The translations under genes and the position numbers were made by a program. This document shows positions 12,217-28,571 of a DNA stretch of 28,874 nucleotides, one piece after another. Numbering within the stretch: position 1 is the stretch's first letter; every line of letters starts with the position of its first letter. Source of the DNA: a virus; the IMG/VR virus record IMGVR_UViG_3300027710_000101, positions 1-28,874 of that record; one strand, written 5' to 3'. The notes under the pieces were generated by a model. The model did not search any database. It saw only the letters and a program-made list of their open reading frames with translations, and had not been told where the DNA came from.

Positions 12217-12498
12217 ATGACTACTCACTCACTCACTACCCTTAGCAACTCTACTGCTACCAGACTCACACCATTAGGGCTTCACTCTGGAATGGACGTT
12301 ACTGTACAAAACGTACACGCTTCTGCTACCGTTTATATCGGTGGAGAAGGTGTTACTTCATCCAACTATGGCTACCGACTACTTGCTGGTAACGCAATCT
12401 CATTTGAACTTCCAGGAAGAGATGCACTGTATGCAATTAGTGGCACCAATGGAACGCAAGTTGCTGTCCTTAAAACTAATTTGGAGAATGGCAACTAA
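12217..12498 (+). CDS. Small beta-rich virion protein, 94 aa
   Basis: Starts MTTHSLTTLSNSTATRLTPL and continues with GMDVTVQNVHASATVYIGGE and RLLAGNAISFELPGRDALYA, an all-beta, Ser/Thr-rich pattern I know from small head-decoration or fibre-associated phage proteins. Threonine/serine richness makes it a possible glycosylation target. The ATG at 12217 lies 6 nt after a -10 box. TAATG overlap with the collagen-like gene indicates coupled synthesis of the two. Confidence 0.75.
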   Translation: MTTHSLTTLSNSTATRLTPLGLHSGMDVTVQNVHASATVYIGGEGVTSSNYGYRLLAGNAISFELPGRDALYAISGTNGTQVAVLKTNLENGN

Positions 12499-13937
12499 TG
12501 GCTAGATTTACTGGCAGTGTTGGTGGTGGCGAAGGTACAGGGCCACAGGGAGAACCAGGTGCTGACGGCTCTGATGGTCTAGACTCTTTATTTCTTGGCA
12601 CATGGAATAGCGTAACTGAATTTCTTGCAGTGTATCAAGGTGGTCCAGTAGGCCTGGCTGAAGGGGACTGGTGGGCTTTTGTAAAAGACAACACCGACCC
12701 AAATAAAATTTATGTAGTTCGTGAAGATCCAAACTCTGCAACTGGTTGGGTTATTGACGACAATGAACACTTTGATTTACCAGCAGGTGCCGATGGGGCA
12801 GACGGAGCAGACGGAGCAGACGGAGAAGATGGTGCCGATGGTGCCGATGCACTTTGGGATTATCTTGGAGAATATAACGGAGGCACAATTTACGGTGCTG
12901 GAGCAGTTGTTACATATGATGGACAATTGTGGTACAGAAATGTTTACACATCTGCTGGGTATGCTCCTGGTGTTGGAAACACCTATTGGGATCTACTTGC
13001 AGCAAAGGGTGCTGACGGAGCAGACGGTGCTGATGGTGCTGATGGTGCTGATGGTGCTGATGGTGAGCGTGGAATTAGTGCACTGTCTTGGACATACAAA
13101 GTAGGCACAAGCGTATCAGACGCTGACCCTGGAAATGACTACTTAAACTTTAATGCTGACCCTTTTACTTCATCTACACAGATTAGAGTAGATGATAACC
13201 CTTACGGAATAAACACAACTCTGCATAACTTATTTTTAAGCATTCAGGATGGCTATTTATCTGTAACTTCACAAAGTGATCCTTCATCGTATGCAACTTT
13301 TGAAATAGTTTCCTGCGTAGATGGCACAGTTACAAATGAAACTGAAGACGGAAGTTATGTAATCTTTAACGTAACGCTGGTTAGTACCTATGGATCAATA
13401 AGTAATGAAGACTTTGTTACACTATCTATTTCAATTGCAGGTCCTCAAGGTGCCCCAGGTGCTGATGGTGCAAGCGGAACTTCTGGTCTAGAAACTTCGA
13501 CAAGATACACACCAACATTTACTGCAACTGGTTTAACATTTACTGGAACAGGTGCAACACACCCTACCTATAATTCATACTATGTTAAGGCAGGCAAACT
13601 AGTTAGTTTTGTTATTGAGGTTAACCTATCTACCGTGACAAATTTTGGAACTGGTCAATACAAACTTCAACTACCGTTTACTCCGCAGTTTGGCTTCAAC
13701 CACTTCTCTGGTTGGATTTGGGCTGATCCAAACGTAGACCCAGATGTTGGAACTGGTCACACAATTCTTAATGCCGATACAGCAGGAGTTACTGATGTGC
13801 TAGACTTGCACTACCTTAAGCAAAGTGGTGGTGCCAACTCTCCAATTAGAGAAGATCTGTTTATTCAGGGTACTCCAGTAACACTATCAACCATTAGCAA
13901 AATTTATGTTAATGGTACCTACATTGCTGCATCGTAG
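12498..13937 (+). CDS. Collagen-like tail or head fibre protein
   Basis: A 479-aa protein with interrupted Gly-X-Y repeats: residues about 11-26 (GTGPQGEPGADGSDG), 95-117, 170-193 (mainly GAD) and a short GPQGAPGADG at about 315-325. These should form collagen-like triple helices that trimerise the fibre. Non-repeat beta domains lie at about 28-92 and 120-168, and the C-terminal 145 residues are a Thr/Asn-rich beta domain likely to be the receptor-binding tip. The DNA repeat GGTGCTGAT makes the GAD tract prone to length change. It is followed by a sugar-transferase-like gene, so the fibre may be glycosylated. Confidence 0.85.
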   Translation: MARFTGSVGGGEGTGPQGEPGADGSDGLDSLFLGTWNSVTEFLAVYQGGPVGLAEGDWWAFVKDNTDPNKIYVVREDPNSATGWVIDDNEHFDLPAGADGADGADGADGEDGADGADALWDYLGEYNGGTIYGAGAVVTYDGQLWYRNVYTSAGYAPGVGNTYWDLLAAKGADGADGADGADGADGADGERGISALSWTYKVGTSVSDADPGNDYLNFNADPFTSSTQIRVDDNPYGINTTLHNLFLSIQDGYLSVTSQSDPSSYATFEIVSCVDGTVTNETEDGSYVIFNVTLVSTYGSISNEDFVTLSISIAGPQGAPGADGASGTSGLETSTRYTPTFTATGLTFTGTGATHPTYNSYYVKAGKLVSFVIEVNLSTVTNFGTGQYKLQLPFTPQFGFNHFSGWIWADPNVDPDVGTGHTILNADTAGVTDVLDLHYLKQSGGANSPIREDLFIQGTPVTLSTISKIYVNGTYIAAS

Positions 13938-13948
13938 TCTGGCAACCA

Positions 13949-14629
13949 ATGGACATAGTTTATATCTGCCGTAGAGGCCAGAACGAAGAACTGCGGTATT
14001 CGCTACGATCGGTAGTTAAAAACCTGCCAGAGAGCCGTGTGTGGGTTGTGGGATACAAGCCTGACTGGTATGTCGGAGACTTTATTCCTGTGCCTGATAC
14101 ATCTAATAAGTTTGATAACATTCGCAAGGCTCTTAAGGTTGTTTGCAATACAAGCAGGATATCGGAAGACTTTGTGTTTATGCATGACGATATCTATATA
14201 GTTAGTCATATGCCAGAACTAAAGCCCTACTACTCTGGCACCCTGGCCAACAAGATATCTACTGGCAAAAAGGTTGGTACATACCACAGGAAGATCGTTG
14301 ATGTAGATAGATACCTTGTATCTCTTGGCTATAATAATCCGCTGAACTATGAAGTGCATGTCCCAATGCCTATGAACAGAAACAAACTAAATAGTATTAT
14401 TGATAACAGAATTTTAGAAAGATCTTTGTATGGGAACAAGTTTGTGACAGATGCCATAGAATTACCTAGGGATGTCAAGAACTATGATGGCCTAGATAGA
14501 ACGTTTGTATCGTCTTACGATTATATAAATGGCGACTTGCCGTTCTTGTCTTCTCACGATGTGTCTTTTATAAAGATGAAAGACTTTCTAAATGCCCAGT
14601 TTCCAGAGCCATCACGATACGAAAAATAA
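13949..14629 (+). CDS. Stealth-like sugar-phosphate transferase
   Basis: A 226-aa protein starting MDIVYICRRGQNEELRYSLR, with VWVVGYKPDW and FVFMHDDIYI (D80-D81), matching the conserved opening and MHDD motif of Stealth-family capsule phosphotransferases, which move a sugar-phosphate from a nucleotide sugar. It is shorter than typical Stealth proteins and seems to keep mainly the first two conserved regions. It could modify the upstream fibre or a host wall polymer. No signal peptide, so it acts in the cytoplasm. Confidence 0.7.
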   Translation: MDIVYICRRGQNEELRYSLRSVVKNLPESRVWVVGYKPDWYVGDFIPVPDTSNKFDNIRKALKVVCNTSRISEDFVFMHDDIYIVSHMPELKPYYSGTLANKISTGKKVGTYHRKIVDVDRYLVSLGYNNPLNYEVHVPMPMNRNKLNSIIDNRILERSLYGNKFVTDAIELPRDVKNYDGLDRTFVSSYDYINGDLPFLSSHDVSFIKMKDFLNAQFPEPSRYEK

Positions 14630-14630
14630 G

Positions 14631-14703
14631 TGCCCCTGGTAGGAATCGAACCTACGACTAAGAGATTAGAAGGCTCCTACTCTATCCACTGAGTTACAGA
14701 GGC
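14631..14703 (-). tRNA. tRNA-Arg (anticodon TCT)
   Basis: Acceptor GCCTCTG pairs with CAGGGGC, D stem ACTC/GAGT, T arm GTAGG-TTCGATT-CCTAC, anticodon loop CTTCTAA. The anticodon stem has one mismatch and one wobble. CCA is not encoded. It reads AGA/AGG, rare codons in many high-GC actinobacteria. A 14-bp palindrome GGTAATTAATTACC (14706-14719) lies at its 5' side. Confidence 0.9.
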
Positions 14704-14710
14704 TTGGTAA

Positions 14711-15112
14711 TTAATTACCCTTGCTCTCTATCTTAAACTGGCGAAGGCGACCACAGTTAGCACAAATAAACTTTAGTTGAGATATGCGTCTCTTTGCATC
14801 TTCAAAAGACTTCTTGTCAAATACTGATTCAGCAATTTTAATGACATCTTCGTTATCACGAGGATCTAATTGGCTCTTGTGAAAGTATGACCCACAGGAA
14901 ATACATGGACGCTTTTCTTTAAAGTTGTCTATGTAAGTTAGAACCTTGTTGTAAAACTCTGGGTCCTTAAATGTATCCATGAGAACAATATCCTCTGTAC
15001 CGCCCTTAAGGTAGTATGCTACTGTTCCCTTAGAGCAGCCCAACTCATTGCTGATCTCTCCATAACTTTTTCCTTCTGCTCTTAGGCGAAGGATGTCTTC
15101 TTTATAACTCAT
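14711..15112 (-). CDS. HTH plus zinc-ribbon protein, degenerate HNH-like
   Basis: A 133-aa protein. Residues 1-37 form a helix-turn-helix (LRAEGKSYGEISNELGCSKG then TVAYYL). The C-terminal part has C70-x2-C73 and C117-x2-C120 in CISC...ICANC. The layout matches phage HTH-HNH endonucleases, in which the zinc cysteines enclose a His-containing catalytic loop; here that stretch reads QLDPRDNEDVIK with no HH pair, and CANC is followed by GRL instead of HR. It may be a catalytically dead derivative acting as a DNA-binding regulator. AAAGGG lies upstream of the ATG. Confidence 0.7.
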   Translation of the reverse strand: MSYKEDILRLRAEGKSYGEISNELGCSKGTVAYYLKGGTEDIVLMDTFKDPEFYNKVLTYIDNFKEKRPCISCGSYFHKSQLDPRDNEDVIKIAESVFDKKSFEDAKRRISQLKFICANCGRLRQFKIESKGN

Positions 15113-15133
15113 TGTATACCCTTTCGTGGTAAA

Positions 15134-15472
15134 CTATTTTACTAACCACTTGACTAGGTCTGGGTTGTCTTGCATAATCATAATGAAAGCATTTTCATAA
15201 ATACCAATGAAGTGGTGTTCCCATTCATCGTATTCTGCTTTCTTCTTTGGTTTCGTAGAACCCTCAAGAACCATACGAGCACAGTGTAGTATCTCGTGAA
15301 CGAGAGTTACCTTCTGCTTATCTTCACTAATGTCAGATGCTACAACAATTAAGTTGCCCTGATCAAGAGTGTATCCGTATGTGTTGTCATTTAACATTCC
15401 GTCTTCACGAGTTGAGCGGAACTCAATCTCAAATATTTGTGGTCCAATTTTAACGCTAGTAACTGCCATCAT
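15134..15472 (-). CDS. Zincin-like putative metallopeptidase
   Basis: A 112-aa protein with VTLVHEILHCARM, an HExxH zinc motif at H59-E60-x2-H63, followed by a downstream EWEHHFIGIYENAF that could supply a third ligand. Small single-domain zincins are frequent in phages and may process virion or host proteins. Two adjacent ATGs (15472 and 15469) are possible; the first overlaps the preceding TGA. Substrate unknown. Confidence 0.75.
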   Translation of the reverse strand: MMAVTSVKIGPQIFEIEFRSTREDGMLNDNTYGYTLDQGNLIVVASDISEDKQKVTLVHEILHCARMVLEGSTKPKKKAEYDEWEHHFIGIYENAFIMIMQDNPDLVKWLVK

Positions 15473-16011
15473 AATTCCTTCATAAATAGGTCGATGCTCC
15501 TGTGAAGTTCTTCTATGGAACCATCATTAACTATTATACCGTCAAATCCATGGTTGTCAAGGGCACTTTCAGACGAGTGGTCATTGACAGCAATCACTGA
15601 TGGTTTAGTTAGTCTTATCATACGGCCTTCTTGCAACTTGATAGCCTTGTATTCATTGGGATATCTAACGTCAGTAAAGACGATCTTGTCGAATTTAGAT
15701 ACTCCACGCATGGCCTGGTTAACCCAGAAGTCATCCCCAAACATTTCACGGCCTACCTCTGTGCCCATTACCTGAAGCAGCCTACGAGCCTCTGGAGACG
15801 CTTGCTTTACCTCTTCCCAACCTAGTCCGTCAACTGCCTGTGCCAGGTGCACTCCTGCAAACTCTCCAAGAGAGACAATTGGATTCAGTCTATATAGGGC
15901 TTTGCGAATGGGATCTGCAAACGCTACACGCTTATATCCATAATTACTAATAAGATAGTTAGCAACTGTATCCTTGCCAGTCTGTGCATATCCGCTAAGT
16001 CCGATGATCAT
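15469..16011 (-). CDS. Deoxynucleoside monophosphate kinase
   Basis: A 180-aa P-loop kinase. The P-loop is GYAQTGKDT (residues 7-15), the GKD form typical of phage dNMP kinases; RVAFADPIRKALY (about 28-40) and VFTDVRYPNE (about 111-120) are the family's substrate-binding and DVR motifs. It should phosphorylate dNMPs to supply dNTP precursors for phage DNA. It is coupled to the zincin gene and follows the small gene at 16028. Confidence 0.85.
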   Translation of the reverse strand: MIIGLSGYAQTGKDTVANYLISNYGYKRVAFADPIRKALYRLNPIVSLGEFAGVHLAQAVDGLGWEEVKQASPEARRLLQVMGTEVGREMFGDDFWVNQAMRGVSKFDKIVFTDVRYPNEYKAIKLQEGRMIRLTKPSVIAVNDHSSESALDNHGFDGIIVNDGSIEELHRSIDLFMKEL

Positions 16012-16027
16012 TTAAATAACATTCCTA

Positions 16028-16243
16028 TTAGATTGATTTGGCTTCTTCAGCAAGTTCCTGAACCACTTTGATAACGTGCTTTACGTAGTAAGAGAAGTGT
16101 GGATCTTCTGTTGCTGTCTCATTAAACTCTTTAACGAATACAGATATTACTTTGTCGTATGCGGTTAGCATACCCTCACGAACTAGAGATGCAACAACAA
16201 TCTCTTGCTCTGGTGTTAGGTTGTCTAGTTCAATGCTAATCAT
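16028..16243 (-). CDS. Hypothetical helical protein, 71 aa
   Basis: Starts MISIELDNLTPEQEIVVASL; an all-helical acidic protein with HFSYYVKHVIKVVQELAEEA at the end. It overlaps the groES-like gene by 8 nt. No family recognised. Confidence 0.7.
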   Translation of the reverse strand: MISIELDNLTPEQEIVVASLVREGMLTAYDKVISVFVKEFNETATEDPHFSYYVKHVIKVVQELAEEAKSI

Positions 16244-16529
16244 TTGTAATCACCGCAAAGATGTCACGGTATGGAAGGATTACGAGGTTCTCGTTTTGGT
16301 GCTCAATTTCTGTACCGCTATACTTAGAATAGATAACCTTATCCCCAACCTGTAGGTCAATGGTCATCTTTGTTCCATCAGCGAACGTTGCACCAGAACC
16401 AACGGCAACAACAATACCCTCAGTTGGCTTTTCTTTTTCTATCTTTGTAATGATAAGACCAGACGCAGATGTCTTCTCTGCTTCTTCAATTGGTTTTACG
16501 ACTACCTTATCTTCTAAAGGTTTAATCAT
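16236..16529 (-). CDS. groES: GroES-type co-chaperonin
   Basis: A 97-aa protein with the GroES pattern: MIKPLEDKVVVKPIEEAEKT, the mobile loop KTSASGLIIT (about residues 19-28), KPTEGIVVAVGSG, VGDKVIYSKYSGTEI and an ENLVILPYRDIFAVI end. GroES caps the GroEL chamber; with no groEL in the window it would work with the host chaperonin, like T4 gp31, probably to fold a capsid protein. It lies in a run with dNMP kinase and membrane genes. The length matches bacterial GroES. Confidence 0.93.
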   Translation of the reverse strand: MIKPLEDKVVVKPIEEAEKTSASGLIITKIEKEKPTEGIVVAVGSGATFADGTKMTIDLQVGDKVIYSKYSGTEIEHQNENLVILPYRDIFAVITND

Positions 16530-16530
16530 T

Positions 16531-16737
16531 TTAGTACTCGCTTTCTTGGTGCTTTACACCGTGCTTGTCATCAATATACTTGTGGATCTTGCGTAGTGCT
16601 ACCGCCTTTGATATAGCAAAGCCTACCAAAACGAATACGGCATTCCAGAAAAACTCTGATACCATATGTTCTACGCCAAATGTAATTTCAATGATTGTGT
16701 CAAAAAGGCTCTCGCCCTCGTGTTCATGCTCGTGCAT
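16531..16737 (-). CDS. Membrane protein with His/Glu-rich N-terminus, 68 aa
   Basis: Starts MHEHEHEGESLFDTIIEITF, followed by one or two hydrophobic helices (FFWNAVFVLVGFAISKAVAL, about residues 29-48) and a charged tail KIHKYIDDKHGVKH. The HEHEHE start may bind metal. I have seen similar proteins in other phage genomes without a function. A holin role is possible but unproven. It starts on the previous stop (TAATG). Confidence 0.75.
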   Translation of the reverse strand: MHEHEHEGESLFDTIIEITFGVEHMVSEFFWNAVFVLVGFAISKAVALRKIHKYIDDKHGVKHQESEY

Positions 16738-16988
16738 TACTTTCTCCTGTTAATTAGTTCGATTGCTGCCTGTAGGCCTTTTCTATACTCAAGTTTACCA
16801 TTTTCTGGCAAGGAAGTCAATTCCTTTTGTATTCTTTTTACAAAGACTTTTCTTGATTCATTGACAGCCTTTTTAGATCCAGTCGTGAATCCTTCGCCAT
16901 AACCCTTAGAATATCCTTCATCAAATCCCTGTTGATACTTCTTTTTAAATGTTCTCTGTAGGCGATCTGCCCAGTCTGGTTTGTTCAT
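16737..16988 (-). CDS. Hypothetical basic helical protein, 83 aa
   Basis: Starts MNKPDWADRLQRTFKKKYQQ and contains GFDEGYSKGYGEGFTTGSKK, a GxxxG-type repeat, then KLEYRKGLQAAIELINRRK, which resembles the YNKGFKAALETVIKLLD of the gene at 10959. Possibly a distant member of the same small-protein family. It starts just upstream of the tRNA-proximal region and is the first gene of this overlapping unit. Confidence 0.7.
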   Translation of the reverse strand: MNKPDWADRLQRTFKKKYQQGFDEGYSKGYGEGFTTGSKKAVNESRKVFVKRIQKELTSLPENGKLEYRKGLQAAIELINRRK

Positions 16989-17001
16989 TGCTCTCCTATC
17001 G

Positions 17002-17073
17002 CTCCCCCACCTAGATTCGAACTAAGAATGACGGCACCAAAAACCGTAGTGTTGCCAATTACACCAAAGGGGA
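17002..17073 (-). tRNA. tRNA-Gln (anticodon TTG)
   Basis: Acceptor TCCCCTT with TGGGGGA (one mismatch at the base of the stem), D stem GTGT/CACT, anticodon loop TTTTGGT, T arm with TTCGAAT. The discriminator is G, as usual for Gln. CCA not encoded. Confidence 0.9.
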
Positions 17074-17078
17074 TTTTG

Positions 17079-17150
17079 CAGTCCCAAGGGGAATCGAACC
17101 CCTCCTACCGCCGTGAAAGGGCGACGTTCTAACCGATAAACTATGGGACC
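17079..17150 (-). tRNA. tRNA-Glu (anticodon TTC)
   Basis: Acceptor GGTCCCA with TGGGACT, D stem GTTT/GAAC, anticodon loop CTTTCAC, T arm AGGGG-TTCGATT-CCCCT. Five bases separate it from tRNA-Gln. CCA not encoded. Confidence 0.92.
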
Positions 17151-17190: not shown

Positions 17191-18225
17191 TTATTCTGCT
17201 GAATAATTTGGGAAGATCTTTGGTGCATTCTCGCACATGTCTTCTACAAGGTCAGCAAACGAACGCTTGCGGAACCATCCAAGATCATTAACAGCCTTGC
17301 TAGGATCGCCTAGAAGGGTCTCTACTTCTGCTGGTCTAAAGAACTTATGGTTTACCTTTACGATGGTTCTGCCTGTGTTCTTGTCGATACCGATCTCGTC
17401 TACTCCTGTACCCTGCCACTCAATGTCAAAGCCGTAGTATTTAGCAGCAATCTCTACGAACTCACGAACCGAGTGTTGTTCTCCTGTTGCAATAACGTAA
17501 TCGTCTGGCTGCTCTGCCTGTAGAATTAGCCACATGGCGTATACGAAGTCTTTAGCGTGTCCCCAGTCACGAAGTGCATCCAGGTTGCCAAGTTCAAGGG
17601 TATCCATCTTGTAATTCTTAATAGCATTAAGAGACAAAACAATCTTGCTTGTTACAAAATTAGCACCACGCTTAGGTGACTCGTGGTTAAACAGAATTCC
17701 ACTGGTAGCAAACATGCCATAAGATTCACGATAGTTCTTTGTAATCCAGTGTGCGTATAGTTTTGCTACACCATATGGAGATCTTGGGTAGAACGGAGTG
17801 GTTTCCTTTTGAGGCACTTCTTGTACCTTGCCAAACATCTCAGAGGTAGAGGCCTGGTAGAAGCGAGTCTTGTCTTTTAGCCCTAGCACTCTAATTGCTT
17901 CAAGGATGCGTAGTGCACCAAGAGCGTCTGTGTCTGCTGTAAATTCTGCTGTGTCAAACGATACCTGCACGTGGCTCTGTGCACCAAGATTATAAATCTC
18001 ATCTGGCTCAACCAACTTAATTAGGTTTGTGATAGATGCAGAATCTGTCAGGTCGCCTTGGTGAAGGAATAGGTTATCATTGTGCAGGATATCTTTAAGC
18101 CTAACTAGGTTGTCTGTTGATGATCGTCTTACGATACCGTGAACCTGGTAGCCAATGTTAAGTAGAAGTTCTGCTAAGTAGGAACCATCTTGGCCAGTAA
18201 TGCCAGTAATTAATGCTTTCTTCAT
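17191..18225 (-). CDS. gmd: GDP-mannose 4,6-dehydratase
   Basis: A 344-aa full-length short-chain dehydrogenase. The Rossmann motif GITGQDG is at residues 8-14, the catalytic T127-S128-E129 in ASTSEMFG and Y151-x3-K155 in [10 protein letters not shown]. Substrate signatures include [10 protein letters not shown] and [16 protein letters not shown]. It converts GDP-D-mannose to GDP-4-keto-6-deoxymannose, precursor of GDP-fucose, GDP-rhamnose and GDP-perosamine. No partner reductase or aminotransferase is seen in the window. It follows the head-type gene by 2 nt, so both should be late-expressed. Confidence 0.95.
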
Positions 18226-19334: not shown

Positions 19335-20069
19335 ATGTCTAAGCCAGTTGTTTTCGTGTATTCTGTTATTCGAAATGAATCTCAGTATCTCAAAAGATAT
19401 CACGCCCAGTTGAAGGAAATGGTAAAGACCTTCCCAGAATATGAGTTTATCTTGTCAATCTATGAGAATGACTCTAATGACGGTACCCCCAGAATGATTG
19501 CAGCAATGGACTGGTCATTCTTTTCAGACTTTTCTTTTATTACCGAGACCCTTAGAACACAGAACTATGGGTCAGTCAAGTCAAAGGATAGGGTTAAAAA
19601 CCTTTCTATTGCCAGAAACAAAGCCATAGAGGCTAAAGACTTTTTAAATAGGGCTGACTACATTATGATGGTTGAGTCTGACATGAGATTTGATATGAAT
19701 GTCATTAAGCAGATCTTAGAGTTTAAAAAACTAGAACCAGACTTTGATATTGTTTCTGGTCTTACTGTAAACAACCACCCTATCTATGATAGTTGGGCTA
19801 CTCGCAAGGGTCCAAAGTTTACAAGTCACGAAGAAGTTAGGCTTTATGATACTAAGTCAAAGCCGTACGACAAGTACTATGCTACGTCAAATGGTGTTTG
19901 TTTGTATCGTGCAGAACCTTTTAGACAAGGTGCTCGTTATGGATATATAAATCCTGTGACTAAAGATTTTGATTGCGATACCGTTGTTGTTTGCCAAAAC
20001 TTTCACAAACTTGGTTATGATAAAATCTACATCATACACACGGCAAAGATTTATCACGAACACTTTTAG
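19335..20069 (+). CDS. Glycosyltransferase, GT69/GT2-like
   Basis: A 244-aa protein beginning MSKPVVFVYSVIRNESQYLK, with SIYENDSNDGTPRMI (residues 41-55) and MMVESDMRFD (111-120) as a probable metal-binding acidic motif. RNE..Y...YEN-S-DGT is the pattern of CMT1-like GT69 mannosyltransferases. Sugar and acceptor are unknown. It is the only plus-strand gene between two minus blocks, with AAAAGGA upstream and a bidirectional terminator after it, so its expression is independent. A link to the fibre or head glycans is inferred. Confidence 0.75.
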   Translation: MSKPVVFVYSVIRNESQYLKRYHAQLKEMVKTFPEYEFILSIYENDSNDGTPRMIAAMDWSFFSDFSFITETLRTQNYGSVKSKDRVKNLSIARNKAIEAKDFLNRADYIMMVESDMRFDMNVIKQILEFKKLEPDFDIVSGLTVNNHPIYDSWATRKGPKFTSHEEVRLYDTKSKPYDKYYATSNGVCLYRAEPFRQGARYGYINPVTKDFDCDTVVVCQNFHKLGYDKIYIIHTAKIYHEHF

Positions 20070-21132: not shown

Positions 21133-21420
21133 TTATTCTTTGTCAATCGTTAGGTATTCCCAAACTTTTGCCCAGTCCTGCTTATTACGATGCTTGTTGA
21201 ATTCCCTTGAGATTTTTCCGTTCTCAAAGTAAACTCCACCTGCCACTCCCCAACCCTTGGTTGAAACAGCAACAGCAAAGCATTGTCTTGCGACTGGACA
21301 ACTTGCACAGACAGCGTCAATGTCTTTTCTTACTTCCAAATCTTCTTCATAGTTGTCGAAGAAGTCATTGGTTTCCATGCCTAAGCATTCGGCTTTATCT
21401 TTCCATTCATGCTTATCCAT
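21133..21420 (-). CDS. whiB: WhiB-family Fe-S transcription factor
   Basis: A 95-aa Wbl protein. Four cysteines at C12, C38, C41 and C47 (C-x25-C-x2-C-x5-C) hold a 4Fe-4S cluster, followed by GWGVAGGVYF, matching the family's G[VI]WGG turn in relaxed form, and a basic region (REFNKHRNKQDW). Wbl proteins bind domain 4 of the host primary sigma factor and change promoter choice; phage TM4 WhiB inhibits host WhiB2. The ATG at 21420 is used; a TTG at 21429 is an alternative. The family is restricted to actinobacteria and their phages, which fixes the host phylum. Confidence 0.93.
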   Translation of the reverse strand: MDKHEWKDKAECLGMETNDFFDNYEEDLEVRKDIDAVCASCPVARQCFAVAVSTKGWGVAGGVYFENGKISREFNKHRNKQDWAKVWEYLTIDKE

Positions 21421-21421
21421 T

Positions 21422-21631
21422 TTAGCCAACTAACTTGTTTGGAATCTCCCAACCATTAGCAGTTGCCTCGTAACGTTTCTGTACGATCCACTTGCCGTCA
21501 ACGAATGCTCCGTCTTTAGACATCATGCCGTCTTCACTGGTTTTTGTTTGAATGACTGTCCAGCCATCCCATGAAAGGCTGTCGTTATTCTTGACAATAT
21601 CTTCCATTGTTTCAAGTGATTTGATTAACAT
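21422..21631 (-). CDS. Hypothetical phage protein, 69 aa
   Basis: Starts MLIKSLETMEDIVKNNDSLS and contains WDGWTVIQTKTSEDGMMSKD then FVDGKWIVQKRY, a beta-rich protein. GGGAG lies upstream of the ATG. It ends 2 nt before the ATG of whiB and may be co-transcribed with it. Similar small proteins occur in actinophages; role unknown. Confidence 0.75.
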   Translation of the reverse strand: MLIKSLETMEDIVKNNDSLSWDGWTVIQTKTSEDGMMSKDGAFVDGKWIVQKRYEATANGWEIPNKLVG

Positions 21632-22448: not shown

Positions 22449-22856
22449 TTATTTGTTAGACTTCGCTCTTGCCTTGGCAAGTGCTTCAAAGTCTTTTACC
22501 TTGGTGTCTCCAAGATATCCCCAAGCGAAACCCTTTTCGATCATCTCGTGATTGATTGAATTACCTTCTCCGTCAAGGTATAGCCATCCCAAGATGCGAC
22601 CATACTTTTCAGATGAGTCCATCTTCTCAGTCTTAATAACTACATTCTTTGCTGCCTTGATGCGGTCAGCGAGGTACTTCTTTGACTCTAGACCAAGTGC
22701 CTTCTCGGCTTTGTTTGTGGTACGTGATTCTGGGGTATCAATACCAGCCAAGCGAACACGTGAAGTAAAACTAATGTCAAACCCTAGATCGATTACAACG
22801 TCAATGGTATCCCCATCTACTACGTTGGTTACTGCTTTTACAAAATATTCATACAT
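22449..22856 (-). CDS. Staphylococcal-type thermonuclease (SNase domain)
   Basis: A 135-aa single-domain nuclease: NVVDGDTIDVVIDLG, RVRLAGIDTPES and EKYGRILGWLY. The catalytic set R35, E43 and R87 is complete and even shares the numbering of mature S. aureus nuclease. These enzymes cut DNA and RNA with Ca2+. There is no signal peptide, so it should act in the cytoplasm, perhaps on host DNA or recycled phage DNA. The start at MYEYFVK has GGAGG upstream; the frame is open to 22895. It overlaps the GDPD-like gene by 8 nt and is last in that operon. Confidence 0.93.
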   Translation of the reverse strand: MYEYFVKAVTNVVDGDTIDVVIDLGFDISFTSRVRLAGIDTPESRTTNKAEKALGLESKKYLADRIKAAKNVVIKTEKMDSSEKYGRILGWLYLDGEGNSINHEMIEKGFAWGYLGDTKVKDFEALAKARAKSNK

Positions 22857-23286
22857 TTTGTTCCTCCTTAGCGACATAGTCACTACAAATAGCATAACAA
22901 TTATACTCTGTTTTGCCCTCTAAGTCAACTATTACAGATCGATCTCCAACTTCTTTTCCTGGATATGTCCAAATAAAGTTTTGACTGGTCATCGTAAAGT
23001 CGTCGTCCTGATGCCAGAAGTAGTTGTAGGAGTTGCCCAACTTAGCAAAGTGGTCTAGGGCTTCAAAGTTTTTGCAATGAATCCAAAGTTTGTCAATGTT
23101 ATCTGTCAAGAACTTTTCACGGATTAGGTATTGTGCTGAGTCGTGCCCTGCCCAGAGCACTCCACGAATCATCCACACATCTATCTCTACGTCAAAGCCC
23201 TTGTCAATTGCGGTCTGAGCATACCATAATTGATTCTCGTAGGCTGTTATGCCGTTCGTATTCCCTCTGTGTGCGATTCTTCTCAA
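22849..23286 (-). CDS. Glycerophosphodiesterase/PLC-like phosphodiesterase, compact
   Basis: About 145 aa from a TTG with GGAG 7 nt upstream. Residues IAHRGNTNGI (H6) and YEN, VEIDVW (E34, D36) and GHD (H48) match the GDPD superfamily active site in order. Normal GDPDs are 240 aa or more; this one keeps the first half of the barrel and a shortened C-terminal part (IWTYPGKEVGDRSVIVDLEG). It would cleave a phosphodiester such as glycerophosphodiester or a teichoic-type link. The gene overlaps the nucleotidyltransferase by 83 nt. Confidence 0.75.
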   Translation of the reverse strand: MRRIAHRGNTNGITAYENQLWYAQTAIDKGFDVEIDVWMIRGVLWAGHDSAQYLIREKFLTDNIDKLWIHCKNFEALDHFAKLGNSYNYFWHQDDDFTMTSQNFIWTYPGKEVGDRSVIVDLEGKTEYNCYAICSDYVAKEEQNV

Positions 23287-23977
23287 GGTAGATCTCCAAG
23301 TCTTCTGGTGTGCCAATGCCGTGCATCTCCTGCACAAAGTGTGGCACTACTATTTTACCATCTTCTATGGCTTCGTTGTAGACAGGACAGATGTAAAATT
23401 CATTGTTAGTTTTAATATTCTTAGCAATCATTTGTTCTGCATACTTTACATAGTCAGAGCCTTTGGACCAGCCATAGATGCCCACGCTTGCATTGTTGCT
23501 AATAACTTTCTTTTCCGCTACCTCAACTACCCTGGCCTGATCAATCTTGGCATATGACCACTTGGGATTGTCATCTTTGAATAGTGCTATAACGTCACCA
23601 GAGGCCATCTGAGAGGTAAACGCAGAACTATCCCATACAACTACCTGGTCTGAATTGGCGATTAGCAATGGCATATCGTTATCAATAAAATCTTTGGCAA
23701 GTAGGGTTGTTCTAGCAGCACCATCAGTCACTCCATCTATCTCAACAATTGTGCATCCTGGCACATATTCGTCTAGCACATCTTGCAAGTGATACCTTAC
23801 AGAGTGTTCCTTCTGGACAATAAAGATGTAGTGACCATCAATATTAATATTATCAATGACCTTCTTAATCATTGGCTCACCATCAACATCGATTAGTGGC
23901 TTTGGCTTACTGTATCCCTTTTCAGCGAAGCGACTACCCAGACCTGCCATTGGAATAAGTATATTAATCTTTTGCAT
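23204..23977 (-). CDS. Sugar (or polyol) phosphate nucleotidyltransferase
   Basis: A 257-aa NTP-transferase fold. MAGLGSRFAEKGYSKPKPLI (residues 10-29) is the nucleotide-binding loop with the K-P-K-P metal/phosphate contact; LLIANSDQVVVWD holds the base-binding Asp (SD), and VGIYGWSKGSDYVKYAEQMI plus HGIGTPEDLEIYL are typical of sugar-1-phosphate nucleotidyltransferases. The activated product (CDP-, GDP- or UDP-) is not predictable here. The last 20 or so residues beyond GTPEDLEIYL are an unusual extension, created by overlap with the GDPD-like gene. Confidence 0.88.
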   Translation of the reverse strand: MQKINILIPMAGLGSRFAEKGYSKPKPLIDVDGEPMIKKVIDNINIDGHYIFIVQKEHSVRYHLQDVLDEYVPGCTIVEIDGVTDGAARTTLLAKDFIDNDMPLLIANSDQVVVWDSSAFTSQMASGDVIALFKDDNPKWSYAKIDQARVVEVAEKKVISNNASVGIYGWSKGSDYVKYAEQMIAKNIKTNNEFYICPVYNEAIEDGKIVVPHFVQEMHGIGTPEDLEIYLEKNRTQREYERHNSLRESIMVCSDRN

Positions 23978-24593
23978 TTAAATACTCTACCGCTTTCTGA
24001 ATCCTGTCGAACGTTAGGCTAGACCTGTTTTCTATTGGCTCTAGTTTGGCATTTGACGAACTCGCTGCCTCTCTGCCTATCTCGCTGTCTTCAAATATAA
24101 TTACGTTGTCTGGCGTAACTCCTAGATCTGTCATGCAGTTTAGATATATTTCTGGACTTGGCTTTGGAAAGTTTACGTCTTCATTACTCAGTGAGTGATC
24201 AATCAGATCTTTAATGCCCAAGGCCTTTAGGCAGCCATTCAGTGTTGCCCTAATGCTATTACTTGCAACGCCTATTAGGATATCCTGCGACTTTATGTAT
24301 TTAAGTAGATTAATTAATTCTGCATCCGTAGACACACTAGAAAACATTGCAGTAGAAAACTTCTGCTTTTCTTCCCAAATATTTTTGTGTAGCAATCTGG
24401 GCAACCCTCTTGTATAAGTTAATATATTTAGTTTAGAATATGTTGTCAGGCCTTCGAAGGTAGTATCCTGATCATTTCTAGAAATAATATACTTCTTGTC
24501 TACGTTGGCTAGGGCAAGGTTGAGGGCATTGAAATGAATTTCTTTGCTGTCTATCAGAACTCCGTCTAGGTCGAAGATTATTGCCCTGTTCAT
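23964..24593 (-). CDS. HAD-family phosphatase
   Basis: A 209-aa HAD hydrolase with IIFDLDGVLIDS (nucleophile D8, acid D10), IGVASNS for motif II, K169-region FPKPSPEIYL for motif III and IIFEDSEIGREAA for motif IV. The cap is alpha-helical, as in beta-phosphoglucomutase-like phosphatases. In this operon it probably removes phosphate from the sugar or polyol phosphate before nucleotidyl transfer. ATGA overlap with the GT61 gene. Confidence 0.9.
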   Translation of the reverse strand: MNRAIIFDLDGVLIDSKEIHFNALNLALANVDKKYIISRNDQDTTFEGLTTYSKLNILTYTRGLPRLLHKNIWEEKQKFSTAMFSSVSTDAELINLLKYIKSQDILIGVASNSIRATLNGCLKALGIKDLIDHSLSNEDVNFPKPSPEIYLNCMTDLGVTPDNVIIFEDSEIGREAASSSNAKLEPIENRSSLTFDRIQKAVEYLNAKD

Positions 24594-25714
24594 TTCTGAA
24601 GCATTTCCTTTAGTCCTGGGTTTGCGTCAATAAACTTACGAACCTTGTCTGAACTTCTAAAGTAGTTAGGAATTCCAATGTAGGTGTGCTCTTTAAAGAA
24701 TGCGAGATTGTGATAAAACATATGAATTTCTTGAACTGTGTTTAGGTCTAGTTCATATTCTTTTGGATCAATGCCGTTGTTTTTAAGGTACTCGTTACTA
24801 ACAACAGGGGACTGAGTAATTAGTGGTGTTACCAATTCGATCATGGTTCCACCTGGCTGCATAAAAACGCCATTGACCATTCCAGAACTGGTCAGAGATG
24901 CCATGACCTTTACTTTATAAAAGTAGTCCACCTGCTCTTGAAAATTTTTAAAGTCTTCTGGATAAACTACTTCAAACCCAAGGTCTTTAAATACCTGCTC
25001 AATTTCAGAATGATTGTCTATCCTATTATCGTCTACGTAGGAAAAGTTTACGGCATCCTTTAGCGGATCTCTCCAGTTCATCTTTCCACGGCTAACAAAA
25101 ACTTTTTTGTGTGCTTCTTCTTTAGGATTGGTGACATGCTTTTTAAAGAATTCAGCAAGCACGTCAAGTCTTGCACCTGAGTGAAATGGAAACGCTAGCA
25201 GCGTAAAGTCGTTAATGTAAACAATGTCAAACTTTTTTAATTCTACAAGGGTGTACTTTACTTTTTCTTTGTCTAAACATTTTAGGAAGTATCCAATAAA
25301 GTCCCACTCTGGTGTTGTCAGTGCTCCACGTACTTCTGTGAGGTCGATTATTAGTTCTAGGTCTGGATACTTGTTGATAGCATACACAATTTCTGCAAGA
25401 TCGTCAGCCACAGCGTGATAATAACTTGCCACAATCCTTTTAATAAACTTTTTCTTTGGACCAATTAGATGTAGAACCTTGGCATTGTCTGCTTCCAGGT
25501 ATCCCTTAACCACAGTCTTTTCATTTAGTTCTAGATCTGATATCTTGTTTGGATTAAAGCCATCGCCATCTATGGATACCTTTATTGTGTGCAGGCCTTT
25601 CCAAAATGGCAAATGGTTGCTAATTCCTTCTGGAAAGTTTGTCTCTATAACACGAGTGATATCTGTGTCATGTCTAAAAAATCTAGAGACATTCTTTTTA
25701 AAACTAATAGGCAT
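24590..25714 (-). CDS. GT61-family glycosyltransferase
   Basis: A 374-aa protein. The C-terminal half has VFVSRGKMNWRD (about residues 204-215), then FEVVYPEDFKNFQEQVDYFY, ASLTSSGMVNGVFMQPGG and TMIELVTP, matching the GT61 (DUF563) pattern of SRR..., EQ...F and HG(A)G..N..F...G..VIE, but SSG replaces HGAG, so the active-site histidine is missing. The N-terminal half is specific. Family members add pentoses or GlcNAc to glycans. It starts on the upstream TAA. Confidence 0.75.
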   Translation of the reverse strand: MPISFKKNVSRFFRHDTDITRVIETNFPEGISNHLPFWKGLHTIKVSIDGDGFNPNKISDLELNEKTVVKGYLEADNAKVLHLIGPKKKFIKRIVASYYHAVADDLAEIVYAINKYPDLELIIDLTEVRGALTTPEWDFIGYFLKCLDKEKVKYTLVELKKFDIVYINDFTLLAFPFHSGARLDVLAEFFKKHVTNPKEEAHKKVFVSRGKMNWRDPLKDAVNFSYVDDNRIDNHSEIEQVFKDLGFEVVYPEDFKNFQEQVDYFYKVKVMASLTSSGMVNGVFMQPGGTMIELVTPLITQSPVVSNEYLKNNGIDPKEYELDLNTVQEIHMFYHNLAFFKEHTYIGIPNYFRSSDKVRKFIDANPGLKEMLQK

Positions 25715-25929
25715 TAGTTATCTCCCTGTAGCCTGTTCTCAATTAGGCGTTCTCGTTCATCAATGATTTCAAATGCAAATGCTTTTAGTTTGTCGTTATT
25801 AGAAGTGTCGTAGTGATGACCACAAAACATAATCTCTCCAGATACCCCCTTGACGTTGATGTACGCCTGTGCATCACAGACATCACAGCGATCTGCGGTA
25901 GTAAGAACCCACTCTTTTGTCTCTACCAT
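25714..25929 (-). CDS. Small zinc-ribbon protein of actinobacterial DUF7455 type
   Basis: A 71-aa protein: ADRCDVCDAQAYINVKGVSG (C15, C18) and MFCGHHYDTS (C36-G-H-H), a four-ligand zinc site, then a charged helix. The RCD.C.AQAYV...LFCGHH pattern is typical of small actinobacterial and actinophage proteins of the DUF7455 type. Function unknown. Overlaps both neighbours at TAATG. Confidence 0.8.
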   Translation of the reverse strand: MVETKEWVLTTADRCDVCDAQAYINVKGVSGEIMFCGHHYDTSNNDKLKAFAFEIIDERERLIENRLQGDN

Positions 25930-26105
25930 TACTTATCCGTTCTGTAGAATCCGCTACCCTTGAATTGAATACCCAGGCTACCCACAACCTGTGTCATAAT
26001 CTTTCCACACCTGTCACAAAAGTGATCTGGTGATGGGTCGTGAATGCTTCGCTTTTCTACCAAAATAGTTTCACATTCTCTGCAAGCGTATTCGTATGTT
26101 GGCAT
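25929..26105 (-). CDS. FmdB-family zinc-ribbon protein, 58 aa
   Basis: Starts MPTYEYACRECETILVEKRS; paired C8-x2-C11 and C30-x2-C33 (HFCDRCGKIM) and the end VGSLGIQFKGSGFYRTDK match the FmdB/Zn_ribbon_8 family, complete in length. FmdB-like proteins bind zinc and are often called regulatory without strong evidence. It begins immediately after the endolysin stop and overlaps the next gene at TAATG. Confidence 0.9.
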   Translation of the reverse strand: MPTYEYACRECETILVEKRSIHDPSPDHFCDRCGKIMTQVVGSLGIQFKGSGFYRTDK

Positions 26106-26906
26106 TTAGTTAATGTGCTCCCATGTCAGAGGTCCTGCAAGACCATCGGCCTTAAGTCCCTTAGCGGTCTGTAACTTTTTTACAGCAGCAACAGTTGCTT
26201 GGTCGTATACTCCAGTTACAGGAACTTTTAGTGCGTTCTGCAAATACTTTACAAGACCATTCTTTGCTCCTACCTTTAGGGTAGACTTTAGAACTGGCTT
26301 GGCTGGCTTGGCAGGAGTTGCTGGAGCAGCCACAGGCTTTACTGGTGCTGGCTTCTTTGCACCGTGAGTTGGTGCTGGTGCTACTGGGTCGTCGTCTGTA
26401 GCGACGACACCTGCGGTTGCAATAGCAGCCTCTTGTGCAATAAGTGCTTTGAAGAATGCGATTGGTTCGATGTAGTTCTTGCCCATCTTGTCCCAGATGT
26501 GCTGCTTGCCTAGACGAAGTTCCCAGTGCAAGTGCTTTCCAGTTGACATACCAGTAGTCCCCATCTTTCCTAGAGGAGTTCCTGCTTCAACCTTCTGGCC
26601 CTTCTTAACTTTAACAGAGCCATCCTGCATGTGTGCATATAGGGTTGTGTATTGCTTGCCACCGATCTTGTGAAGAAGGATTACGTAGTTTCCAAAGCCT
26701 CCGCCTGGACTTGTTGACTTCTTTGATTCTAGAACAACACCGTCATAAGGTGCTTCAATCCAGCATGGTTCGTGTGAAGACCAAATGTCAGTTCCATTGT
26801 GGTGCTTCTTTTCTTTTGTTACAGGGTGAATTCTCATGCCCATTAGTGATGTGACTTTAAAATCTTTTCCGAGTTTACCGTCAATTGGTAGTTGTGCTTT
26901 AGCCAT
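26106..26906 (-). CDS. Endolysin: M23 peptidase plus peptidoglycan-binding domain
   Basis: A 266-aa protein with no signal peptide. Residues about 15-150 are an M23 (LytM-type) metallopeptidase: H36-x3-D40, AHM (H92) and H125-L-H127 are the zinc and catalytic residues. A Pro/Ala/Lys linker (about 165-205) leads to a C-terminal PG_binding_1 domain (KNGLVKYLQNALKVPVTGVY to the end). It cleaves peptide cross-bridges once the holin opens the membrane. AAGGAGGT gives an unusually strong ribosome site. It heads the eight-gene run down to the nuclease. Confidence 0.93.
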   Translation of the reverse strand: MAKAQLPIDGKLGKDFKVTSLMGMRIHPVTKEKKHHNGTDIWSSHEPCWIEAPYDGVVLESKKSTSPGGGFGNYVILLHKIGGKQYTTLYAHMQDGSVKVKKGQKVEAGTPLGKMGTTGMSTGKHLHWELRLGKQHIWDKMGKNYIEPIAFFKALIAQEAAIATAGVVATDDDPVAPAPTHGAKKPAPVKPVAAPATPAKPAKPVLKSTLKVGAKNGLVKYLQNALKVPVTGVYDQATVAAVKKLQTAKGLKADGLAGPLTWEHIN

Positions 26907-26936: not shown

Positions 26937-26943
26937 CCACTTG

Positions 26944-27016
26944 AGCCCCCGACAGGATTCGAACCTGCGACTTCAATATTACAAGTATTGCACTCTACCA
27001 ACTGAGTTACAGGGGC
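26944..27016 (-). tRNA. tRNA-Thr (anticodon TGT)
   Basis: Acceptor GCCCCTG with CGGGGGC, D stem ACTC/GAGT, anticodon stem CAATA/TATTG with loop CTTGTAA, T arm GCAGG-TTCGAAT-CCTGT. CCA not encoded. Confidence 0.95.
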
Positions 27017-27064
27017 ATCGCCTATTTTATCTCATACCCTTGAGAGCGGTTAGGCAACCGTTAG

Positions 27065-27138
27065 CGACTCCGATGGGACTTGAACCCACGACCTCCACCG
27101 TGACAGGGTGGCGTTCTAACCAACTGAACTACGAAGCC
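27065..27138 (-). tRNA. tRNA-Asp (anticodon GTC)
   Basis: Acceptor GGCTTCG with CGGAGTC (wobbles), D stem GTTC/GAAC, anticodon stem CCACC/GGTGG with loop CTGTCAC, T loop TTCAAGT. CCA not encoded. Confidence 0.95.
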
Positions 27139-27142
27139 AAAA

Positions 27143-27188
27143 GTGACACCCTGTGAAATTGATCTTACGAGTAATGCTTGGGTGTCAC
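27143..27188. other. 9-bp inverted repeat between tRNA-Asp and tRNA-Gly
   Basis: GTGACACCC (27143-27151) is the exact reverse complement of GGGTGTCAC (27180-27188), with a 28-nt loop. It could guide cleavage of the tRNA transcript or be a remnant of a lost tRNA or an attachment site. Confidence 0.6.
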
Positions 27189-27191
27189 CCG

Positions 27192-27262
27192 AGCGTATGA
27201 CAGGAATCGAACCTGCACCTCTAACTTGGAAGGATAGGGCACTACCACTATGCAACATACGC
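27192..27262 (-). tRNA. tRNA-Gly (anticodon TCC)
   Basis: Acceptor GCGTATG with CATACGC, anticodon loop CTTCCAA with one stem mismatch, T arm GCAGG-TTCGATT-CCTGT. CCA not encoded. Confidence 0.93.
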
Positions 27263-27277
27263 ATGATATTTCTATCG

Positions 27278-27350
27278 CTGGTCCAGGAGGGCTCGAACCT
27301 CCGACATTTCGGTTAACAGCCGAACACTCTGCCAACTGAGTTATGGACCA
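27278..27350 (-). tRNA. tRNA-Asn (anticodon GTT)
   Basis: Acceptor TGGTCCA with TGGACCA, D stem ACTC/GAGT, anticodon stem TTCGG/CCGAA with loop CTGTTAA, T loop TTCGAGC. First in the cluster in the direction of transcription. Confidence 0.95.
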
Positions 27351-27360
27351 ATACTATTCA

Positions 27361-27389
27361 ATTATACAGGATCAGATGCCTATTTGCAA
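27361..27389 (-). promoter_or_regulatory. Promoter of the four-tRNA cluster (TTGCAA-17-TATAAT)
   Basis: TTGCAA (27384-27389) and TATAAT (27361-27366) on the minus strand with a 17-nt spacer, about 10 nt before tRNA-Asn. It overlaps the last codons of the GT4 gene. Confidence 0.8.
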
Positions 27390-28571
27390 CTTAATATCTT
27401 GCCACTTTTTGAGCACTGATTCTGGTGAACAAAAATTTTCTACATTCTGTTTGGCTTCTTTTATCATAGCATCTTTCTGCTCTGGTGTCAATGACGTGGC
27501 GGTTTTTAGTCCTTGAAGAATAGAGTCCTCGCTTACACCATGCCAAGTAAATCCCCAGAACTCGCTATACTTGTGAGTGTCCTTGTCCACAACCCATGGG
27601 TATGACTCAAGCACGATGTTTGATTTGTCTGTTACAAAGTCTGCCATTGATGTGTGGTCTGGTGAGATGCACAGCATTCCAGAAAGCATTGCTTCGCATA
27701 GTGGAAGGTTCTGCCCCTCTGCTCTGGTTGGAGACACATAGTTCTGACAAGAATCCATGAGCATTTGAAGTTTACTGTCGCTCAACCTGTCTGGAATAAC
27801 ATAAACATTGTTGAAGGTTGTATTTGGGAAAGATGGAAACTCTCTCTTAAACGCAATCTCTTGTAGTTTTGTTAGTGTATTCTTTGCTGTCATCTTTAGG
27901 ATCAGGACTGCGTTTGGATATTCTTCGGTGAACCTAGTAAATGCCGTTACGAGATTGCCAAAGTTTTTTCTAATGTCGTTTGGGTTAAACACGTAGAGGA
28001 ATCTTTGCTCGTACTGGGAGTTGTCTAGTATGTCCTGTAGAGGCATTCCAGGATTGCCCTCGTAGGCATGGGGAACGGTAGTAAAGTTGTAACAGACTAC
28101 ATCTTTAATGGTTTCGTTTGGCTCTATGATCTTTTTAGATACCGCCGAAGGTAGGACATGTGCTTTGATGCCATAGTTGCCAAGAGTTTTCTTTGAGTAG
28201 GATGACAGGGTGAGGACCGAGTCATATCTCTTTAGCATTCTCTCGTAATCTTTTTTAAAGATACCGTTTGAACCAACACTCTTAGGTGGTAGTTTGTCAA
28301 ACTCCCAAGCAAAAACACAAATGTTTTTTGAGTTGGGTGCAAACAGTGAAACGTCTGGTGGCAAGAAAGAAATACTAATAGGACTTCTTGACTTACGAAC
28401 TGATGCCTTTACTATTCCAACATTAAAAGGATATGAGAATGTATCAATAATGTTGTCTGTGTTTTTTGCAATGTCGATAAATGATTCCATGGCAAAGCCA
28501 TACGAGTAATGTGCATACCCCCAGCCTTTGCCCTTAAAGTCAAATGGGCCACTCAAAAATAAATCAGCCAT
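27372..28571 (-). CDS. GT4-family glycosyltransferase
   Basis: A 399-aa GT-B-type protein. FLSGPFDFKGKGWGYAHYSY replaces the usual glycine-rich N-terminal loop, CVFAWEFDKLP and LTLSSYSKKTL are typical of GT4 acceptor domains, and YVSPTRAEGQNLPLCEAMLS with GMLCISPD is the sugar-nucleotide binding EGxxLPxxEA motif. It moves a sugar from a nucleotide sugar to an unknown glycan. No membrane segment. The ATG overlaps the previous stop (TAATG), so it is coupled to the small gene at 28571. Confidence 0.85.
   Translation of the reverse strand: MADLFLSGPFDFKGKGWGYAHYSYGFAMESFIDIAKNTDNIIDTFSYPFNVGIVKASVRKSRSPISISFLPPDVSLFAPNSKNICVFAWEFDKLPPKSVGSNGIFKKDYERMLKRYDSVLTLSSYSKKTLGNYGIKAHVLPSAVSKKIIEPNETIKDVVCYNFTTVPHAYEGNPGMPLQDILDNSQYEQRFLYVFNPNDIRKNFGNLVTAFTRFTEEYPNAVLILKMTAKNTLTKLQEIAFKREFPSFPNTTFNNVYVIPDRLSDSKLQMLMDSCQNYVSPTRAEGQNLPLCEAMLSGMLCISPDHTSMADFVTDKSNIVLESYPWVVDKDTHKYSEFWGFTWHGVSEDSILQGLKTATSLTPEQKDAMIKEAKQNVENFCSPESVLKKWQDIKLQIGI

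Follow-up and report, generated by a model that had tools for sequence, protein, structure and literature searches.

The virus record IMGVR_UViG_3300027710_000101 of IMG/VR (28,874 bases, which together form the window analyzed here) carries a mobile cassette of four genes, about 2.86 kb in length, inserted beside its lysis genes. The cassette encodes a GT61-like glycosyltransferase, a HAD-family protein, a sugar nucleotidyltransferase (NTase) and a small GDPD-like protein (mini-GDPD). We favor, with a probability of roughly 0.55, a role in glycan decoration in which the four proteins would make and attach a nucleoside diphosphate (NDP)-activated sugar. The cassette lies in a run of eight tightly packed genes (22449-26906), all on the minus strand with abutting or overlapping ends. 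Gene calls and family searches agreed with the original prediction made for this region, which had described eight closely packed genes of one direction and named their families:

26106..26906, minus strand: M23 endopeptidase and peptidoglycan-binding endolysin (PF01551, E=1e-23; PF01471, E=3.5e-11), a backbone gene
25929..26105, minus strand: FmdB-type zinc ribbon (TIGR02605, E=2e-12), a backbone gene
25714..25929, minus strand: DUF7455 small Zn-ribbon-like protein (PF24254, E=2e-16), a backbone gene on the other flank of the cassette
24590..25714, minus strand: GT61-like glycosyltransferase of 374 amino acids (PF04577, E=2.2e-15), first gene of the cassette
23964..24593, minus strand: HAD class IA protein of 209 amino acids, beta-phosphoglucomutase (beta-PGM)-like (PF13419, HAD_2, E=1e-27)
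23204..23977, minus strand: sugar NTase of 257 amino acids, RmlA/GlmU superfamily (PHROG 3980, E=2.8e-70)
22849..23286, minus strand: mini-GDPD of 145 amino acids with a TTG start (PHROG 34507, unnamed; no Pfam family)
22449..22856, minus strand: SNase-like nuclease of 135 amino acids (PF00565, E=2e-17), a backbone gene that flanks the insertion and lies outside the cassette

The mobility of the cassette emerged from a search of IMG/VR with the endolysin alone, which recovered 58 loci, 13 of them with the cassette nearby. Many of these relatives share a backbone of M23-FmdB-DUF7455-SNase-H135-P116-WhiB, where H135 and P116 are unnamed proteins of the window (135 and 116 amino acids, respectively), and DUF7455 adjoins FmdB in relatives both with and without the cassette. 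The WhiB transcription factor of the window (21133-21429) points to an actinobacterial host. The cassette occupies the window position, with DUF7455 and SNase on its two sides, in seven loci (L183, L185, L187, L189, L190, L194 and L204); it lies between M23 and FmdB in two (L198 and L201) and after WhiB in two more (L205 and L238), and it is split in another two (L206 and L207), where the mini-GDPD follows WhiB. Eight loci lack it, with DUF7455 directly adjoining SNase (L191, L192, L196, L202, L208, L209, L210 and L236). The insert-free junction in L196 (GGAGATAATTAAATGTATGAATATTTTG) agrees in sequence with both flanks of the window cassette, and therefore the insert starts and stops at gene boundaries. 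Five further loci carry other cargo at the same site, namely an APS-kinase-domain protein with companions, sometimes including other small genes:

L184:1789-2544, L188:2720-3478, and also in L193, L197 and L203: APS-kinase-domain protein (PF01583, E=9e-19 in L184)

Sequence divergence points in the same direction. The flanking genes of the window and of locus L013 are nearly the same (95% amino acid identity for SNase and 91% for M23), whereas the cassette genes GT61, HAD, NTase and GDPD share only 56-78% identity, with synonymous divergence (dS) saturated or at least 1.7. Cassette genes so much more diverged than their flanks argue for exchange of the cassette between phages. The original prediction had coupled these genes functionally to the endolysin and had called for the same gene order in other phages. 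The comparison supports neither: order around the endolysin is not conserved among the 58 loci, and relatives with the same endolysin and backbone lack the cassette, carry it elsewhere or hold unrelated cargo. Nor does an endolysin regularly accompany the HAD/NTase/mini-GDPD module in cyanophages or cells. Judged from gene order, the position beside a cell-wall lysis gene appears to be accidental, and adjacency to an endolysin can thus mislead about function.

The gene junctions of the window are tight throughout. M23 and FmdB abut (TAAATG), the FmdB/DUF7455 and DUF7455/GT61 junctions overlap by 1 nt each (TAATG), and longer overlaps join GT61 to HAD (4 nt, ATGA), HAD to NTase (14 nt), NTase to mini-GDPD (83 nt) and mini-GDPD to SNase (8 nt). 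The mini-GDPD most likely starts at the TTG at 23286, a codon preceded by GGAG and used by close relatives as well. The 83-nt overlap results from an extended C-terminus of the NTase; in relatives such as L013 and L017 the overlap is 8 nt. A programmed frameshift joining NTase and mini-GDPD, which the long overlap had suggested, was rejected in view of relatives with 8-nt overlaps or separate genes. Relatives without the insert place the start of SNase at 22856 (MYEYF...). Nonsynonymous divergence (dN) is much lower than dS in every case in which the latter could be estimated, which indicates that the genes are functional. Seven tRNA genes (26943-27350 and 14630-17150) are also present in the window, four of them clustered just upstream of the endolysin.

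Beyond the endolysin relatives, the trio of HAD, NTase and mini-GDPD recurs as a deeply conserved module in unrelated phages as well as in a few bacteria. Searches of IMG/VR with the mini-GDPD alone and with the NTase alone yielded 158 loci together, some of them near duplicates (the GDPDs form 73 groups at 75% identity). The NTase lies within the locus in 74 of the 80 loci fetched with the mini-GDPD, and the other six records encode an NTase-bearing frame of 459-467 amino acids elsewhere, so that all 80 records have one. The reverse search found the mini-GDPD in most records. It was missing from the fetched stretch of 13 NTase loci, five of which have it elsewhere in the record; of the eight records that lack it, half are shorter than 10 kb and the other four are long (50-208 kb; cyanophage S-SKS1 is among them). 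Fusion of HAD and NTase, the usual state in other phages, was seen in 117 proteins, and in most loci the mini-GDPD is one (64), two (40) or three (31) genes away from them. GDP-mannose dehydratase/epimerase genes, by contrast, occur in only 77 loci. The clusters that hold the module, cyanophage glycan clusters among them, contain many genes for glycosyltransferases, epimerases and methyltransferases, and the mini-GDPD of phages is also found next to methyltransferase genes, those of the FkbM type included.

We also scanned GTDB with a nine-sequence subset of our 66-sequence mini-GDPD alignment, using strict patterns that undercount cellular homologues. The scan returned nine mini-GDPD loci, every one with the NTase and the majority also with the HAD, from Balneolaceae, Magasanikbacteria (286-kb contig), Gammaproteobacteria, Flavobacteriaceae (two loci), Woesebacteria, Chitinophagales (383-kb contig), Crocinitomicaceae and Lokiarchaeota. 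The two long contigs are probably cellular and several short ones could be viral; one copy of the gene (L175) is broken. The original prediction of a single pathway unit made of the trio and a glycosyltransferase is supported, GT61 included, and its HAD/NTase/GDPD part is conserved far beyond this phage. We found no description of the trio in the open-licence literature, and the recurrence of the uncharacterized NTase and mini-GDPD pair in cyanophages, freshwater actinophages, bacteria and an archaeal metagenome-assembled genome points to a glycan chemistry for which we found no published account.

The mini-GDPD retains the signature of the GDPD family (PF03009; e.g., 1v8e and 1vd6 from Thermus and 2pz0 from T. 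tengcongensis), with HRG...EN...ExD...HD in the same order. The motifs HRG, EN, ExD, GH and HxK are invariant across the 66 aligned sequences, and the N-terminal ones map to H6 R7 G8, E17 N18, E34, D36 and G47 H48 of the window protein. PF03009 itself does not match the window protein and reaches only one of the 66 members (E 0.027), below its gathering score. A profile match to the GDPD structure 7e0v (E=9e-5) and a confident AlphaFold2 (AF2) model (pLDDT 94.4, pTM 0.90) support the resemblance to GDPDs. The model is a compact barrel with short strands and few helices, like those of solved GDPDs, and its strands can be read as eight in GDPD-like barrel order. The best Foldseek match in the PDB is the GDPD 1v8e (E=3.3e-4, probability 1.0), with a TM score of only about 0.5-0.6. 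The protein differs from canonical GDPDs in its size (145 versus 217-250 amino acids), its scarcity of barrel helices and, apparently, a histidine where GDPDs have the strand-4 acid. The fold search also located the domain in a giant virus (Homavirus), within a protein annotated as an FkbM methyltransferase (BFVD A0A3G5A5B5; TM 0.89, 41% identity). We read the mini-GDPD as a probably metal-dependent enzyme of phosphodiesterase fold.

The NTase carries the signature GxGxRF...PKPL and the metal-binding Asp (G12, R16, F17, P25, K26 and D110 are conserved), and its AF2 model is confident too (pLDDT 95.2). Its closest solved structure is the NDP-sugar pyrophosphorylase 4evw of V. cholerae RC9 (profile E=7e-39; Foldseek E=1.5e-20, TM 0.79), a structural-genomics entry with 25% identity to the window NTase in the Foldseek alignment. 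The protein is nearest to enzymes acting on sugar 1-phosphates, and no NTase subfamily model scored above its own cut-off. The HAD profile is closest to the TM_1254 phosphatase (3kbb, E=6e-28) and beta-PGM (6hdi, E=1e-27); the protein itself scores below the TIGR01990 cut-off for beta-phosphoglucomutases (79.5 versus 189.4 bits). The equivalents of the beta-PGM catalytic residues D8, D10, H20, K76, K145, E169 and D170 are invariant (D8, D10, H20, K76, K144, E168 and D169). The third enzyme of the proposed route, the GT61-like protein, exceeds the gathering score of Pfam Glyco_transf_61 (57.6 versus 27 bits) and its gene moves with HAD-NTase-miniGDPD. A close-range search with the GT61-like protein found only three relatives.

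Other phages pair the NTase and mini-GDPD with different precursor enzymes. Seventeen loci carry a fusion of the NTase with an RpiB/LacAB isomerase domain, together with a KdsC-like HAD, a PfkB-like protein and, usually, a cupin. A RuBisCO-like protein, searched alone, was found in 31 phage loci, most with the NTase and cupin alongside and many with the mini-GDPD, forming an operon with the order NTase-cupin-RuBisCO-like-(miniGDPD). Class II aldolase-type proteins are also fused to or beside the NTase in other phages, and a RibB fusion occurs in phages similar to S-SKS1:

L255-L285 (e.g., L255:6001-7236) and L084:4764-5999: phage RuBisCO-like protein (PF00016, E=1.7e-32)
L008:6001-7428, L244-L251 and L253: fusion of the NTase to RibB (3,4-dihydroxy-2-butanone-4-phosphate synthase)

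The RuBisCO-like protein is nearest to type III, far below the type III cut-off, and keeps the K-x-D-E motif. The loop-6 lysine seems to be missing, and the protein is therefore probably not a carboxylase. The members of the RpiB, RibB and RuBisCO families that have been characterized act on ribulose phosphates, which suggests that the NTase of the phages encoding these relatives may activate a pentulose-derived unit; the HAD-fed version of the window may make another sugar. The mini-GDPD thus goes with the NTase, without a fixed precursor enzyme (a beta-PGM-like HAD; a KdsC-like HAD with a PfkB-like protein and RpiB-NTase; or a RuBisCO-like protein with a cupin).

These associations are consistent with a pathway in which the HAD would supply a sugar phosphate from the host, through a mutase-like or phosphatase step, and the NTase would join it to a nucleoside triphosphate to yield an NDP-activated sugar, possibly pentose-derived. 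The HAD-NTase fusions and the folds of both proteins suggest this succession. The GT61-like enzyme would then move the sugar onto a glycan of the host surface or virion. Judged from its active-site residues and its dependence on the NTase, the mini-GDPD would carry out an obligatory phosphodiester-type step on the substrate or product of the NTase. The original prediction had the GDPD free a unit, the HAD dephosphorylate it and the NTase activate it. This order is possible, but we do not favor it. The closest relatives of the HAD are beta-phosphoglucomutase and sugar phosphatases, and in other phages precursor-making enzymes, namely sugar-phosphate isomerases and a kinase-like protein, replace it. 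The cassette probably serves to change surface glycans, for receptor masking and exclusion of rival phages, or to glycosylate virions, by analogy with the cyanophage clusters discussed below.

Several features weigh against glycan decoration by the cassette as proposed. The GT61-like protein lacks the histidine of the HGAG motif, as the original prediction had noticed; SSG replaces it in the window and SSG or GSG across the local family (all 32 aligned sequences), which makes transferase activity uncertain. The alignment of the mini-GDPD to canonical GDPDs (hhalign, E=5e-6) covers only its first ~53 residues. In place of the E-x-K of strand 4 in the canonical alignment, the protein has an invariant His70-x-Lys72, a correspondence drawn from motif and strand order outside the hhalign alignment, and its activity may therefore differ. 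The HAD could be a mutase or a phosphatase: it keeps His20 and Lys76, and the equivalents of Arg49 and Lys117 of beta-PGM, which we take to serve the distal phosphate, are T51 and I114 (the alignment near R49 is ambiguous). We infer the order of the steps, the sugar, its acceptor, the use of a metal and the exact mini-GDPD reaction; the genes and their families, the predicted folds, the conserved grouping of HAD, NTase and GDPD, the mobility of the cassette and the lack of a link to the endolysin come from the computations themselves.

The alternative that fares best, and which we nonetheless consider unlikely, is that the cassette adds a phosphate unit to a glycan. The CDP-ribitol and CDP-glycerol pathways are models for such a route, in which the NTase would make a CDP- or NDP-linked polyol or pentulose phosphate and the mini-GDPD would edit or trim the phosphodiester. 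The GDPD-like fold and catalytic-type residues of the mini-GDPD agree with this route, as do the RpiB, RibB, RuBisCO-like and class II aldolase-type partners of the NTase in other phages, whose known relatives use ribulose phosphates. However, the closeness of the NTase to sugar-1-phosphate enzymes speaks against it, and neither a TarJ-type reductase nor a TagF/LicD-type phosphotransferase was identified within the cassette. A passenger status for the genes, acquired from host surface-polysaccharide loci and of little use in infection, would explain the cellular homologues and the variable presence of the cassette among close relatives, but the strong purifying selection, the conserved active-site residues and the fact that very distant phages have kept the trio make it very improbable. 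We give still less credence to hypermodification of phage DNA with an activated sugar. Such a modification would resemble the arabinose on DNA bases of RB69 (PMC6024577) or the pentose on those of phage Thanatos (PMC12838424), and other phages do encode NTases that activate pentoses for this purpose. Against it, the same module is part of bacterial and archaeal clusters of the glycan type, and we noticed no hydroxymethylase next to the cassette. The transferase of the cassette is GT61-like, and several glycosyltransferases are encoded elsewhere in the window. Least credible is the salvage of wall polymers freed by the endolysin, which the GDPD would cut, the HAD dephosphorylate and the NTase activate anew for virion or wall modification: the genes are adjacent and overlapping both in the window and in some seven close relatives, but synteny has already largely refuted the idea, the module stands without an adjoining endolysin in cyanophage and cellular clusters, no export or uptake parts were seen, and nothing supports a supply of pieces from the lysed host wall when cellular clusters hold the same enzymes with epimerase and transferase genes.

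The role in glycan decoration that we prefer draws on polysaccharide clusters of cyanophages and jumbo phages, which were proposed to alter surface polysaccharide and block the attachment of other phages (PMC7824862). Like the module loci, those clusters group NTases, cupins, PfkB-like kinases, epimerases and glycosyltransferases; the HAD-NTase and mini-GDPD core, its four-gene actinophage form and its mobility beside lysis genes are not described in the portion of that work drawn on here. The presence of the same kind of clusters in cyanophages is the basis for the biological role proposed above.

A second point of reference is the GDP-heptose pathway, which runs through GmhA, HddA, GmhB and HddC. 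It resembles the cassette in combining a maker of sugar phosphate with a HAD and an NTase, and other phages show this logic with an isomerase, a kinase-like protein, a HAD and an NTase. It differs in that the cassette HAD is a class IA, beta-PGM-like protein rather than GmhB, and in that GmhA and HddA are absent from the cassette.

We raise, as a tentative and rather doubtful extension, that the mini-GDPD represents a new family of enzymes, one of the smallest with an eight-stranded barrel. Instead of acting as an ordinary glycerophosphodiesterase, it would work on the nucleotide-linked product of the NTase, for example to form or transfer a sugar phosphodiester or cyclic phosphate. The pair would then be the core of an undescribed pathway for pentulose-derived glycans with interchangeable precursor enzymes, the RuBisCO-like protein included. 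The designed TIM barrel sTIM11 has 184 amino acids (PMC13105402), longer than the 145 of the mini-GDPD; we compare it with this design alone, as no clear statement on the smallest natural TIM barrel was found in the literature. The mini-GDPD could thus serve as a naturally occurring model of a pared-down barrel enzyme, and the actinophage form, with only four genes, is a small unit for expression and testing.

Elsewhere in the window, outside the cassette, we identified a GDP-mannose 4,6-dehydratase (above the TIGR01472 cut-off) and three glycosyltransferase-like genes (17191-18225; 19335-20069; 13949-14629; 27372-28571). The phage also encodes a GroES-type chaperonin (16236-16529; Cpn10, E=8e-31) and a collagen-like protein with GADGADGAD repeats (12498-13937) that is probably a tail fibre.

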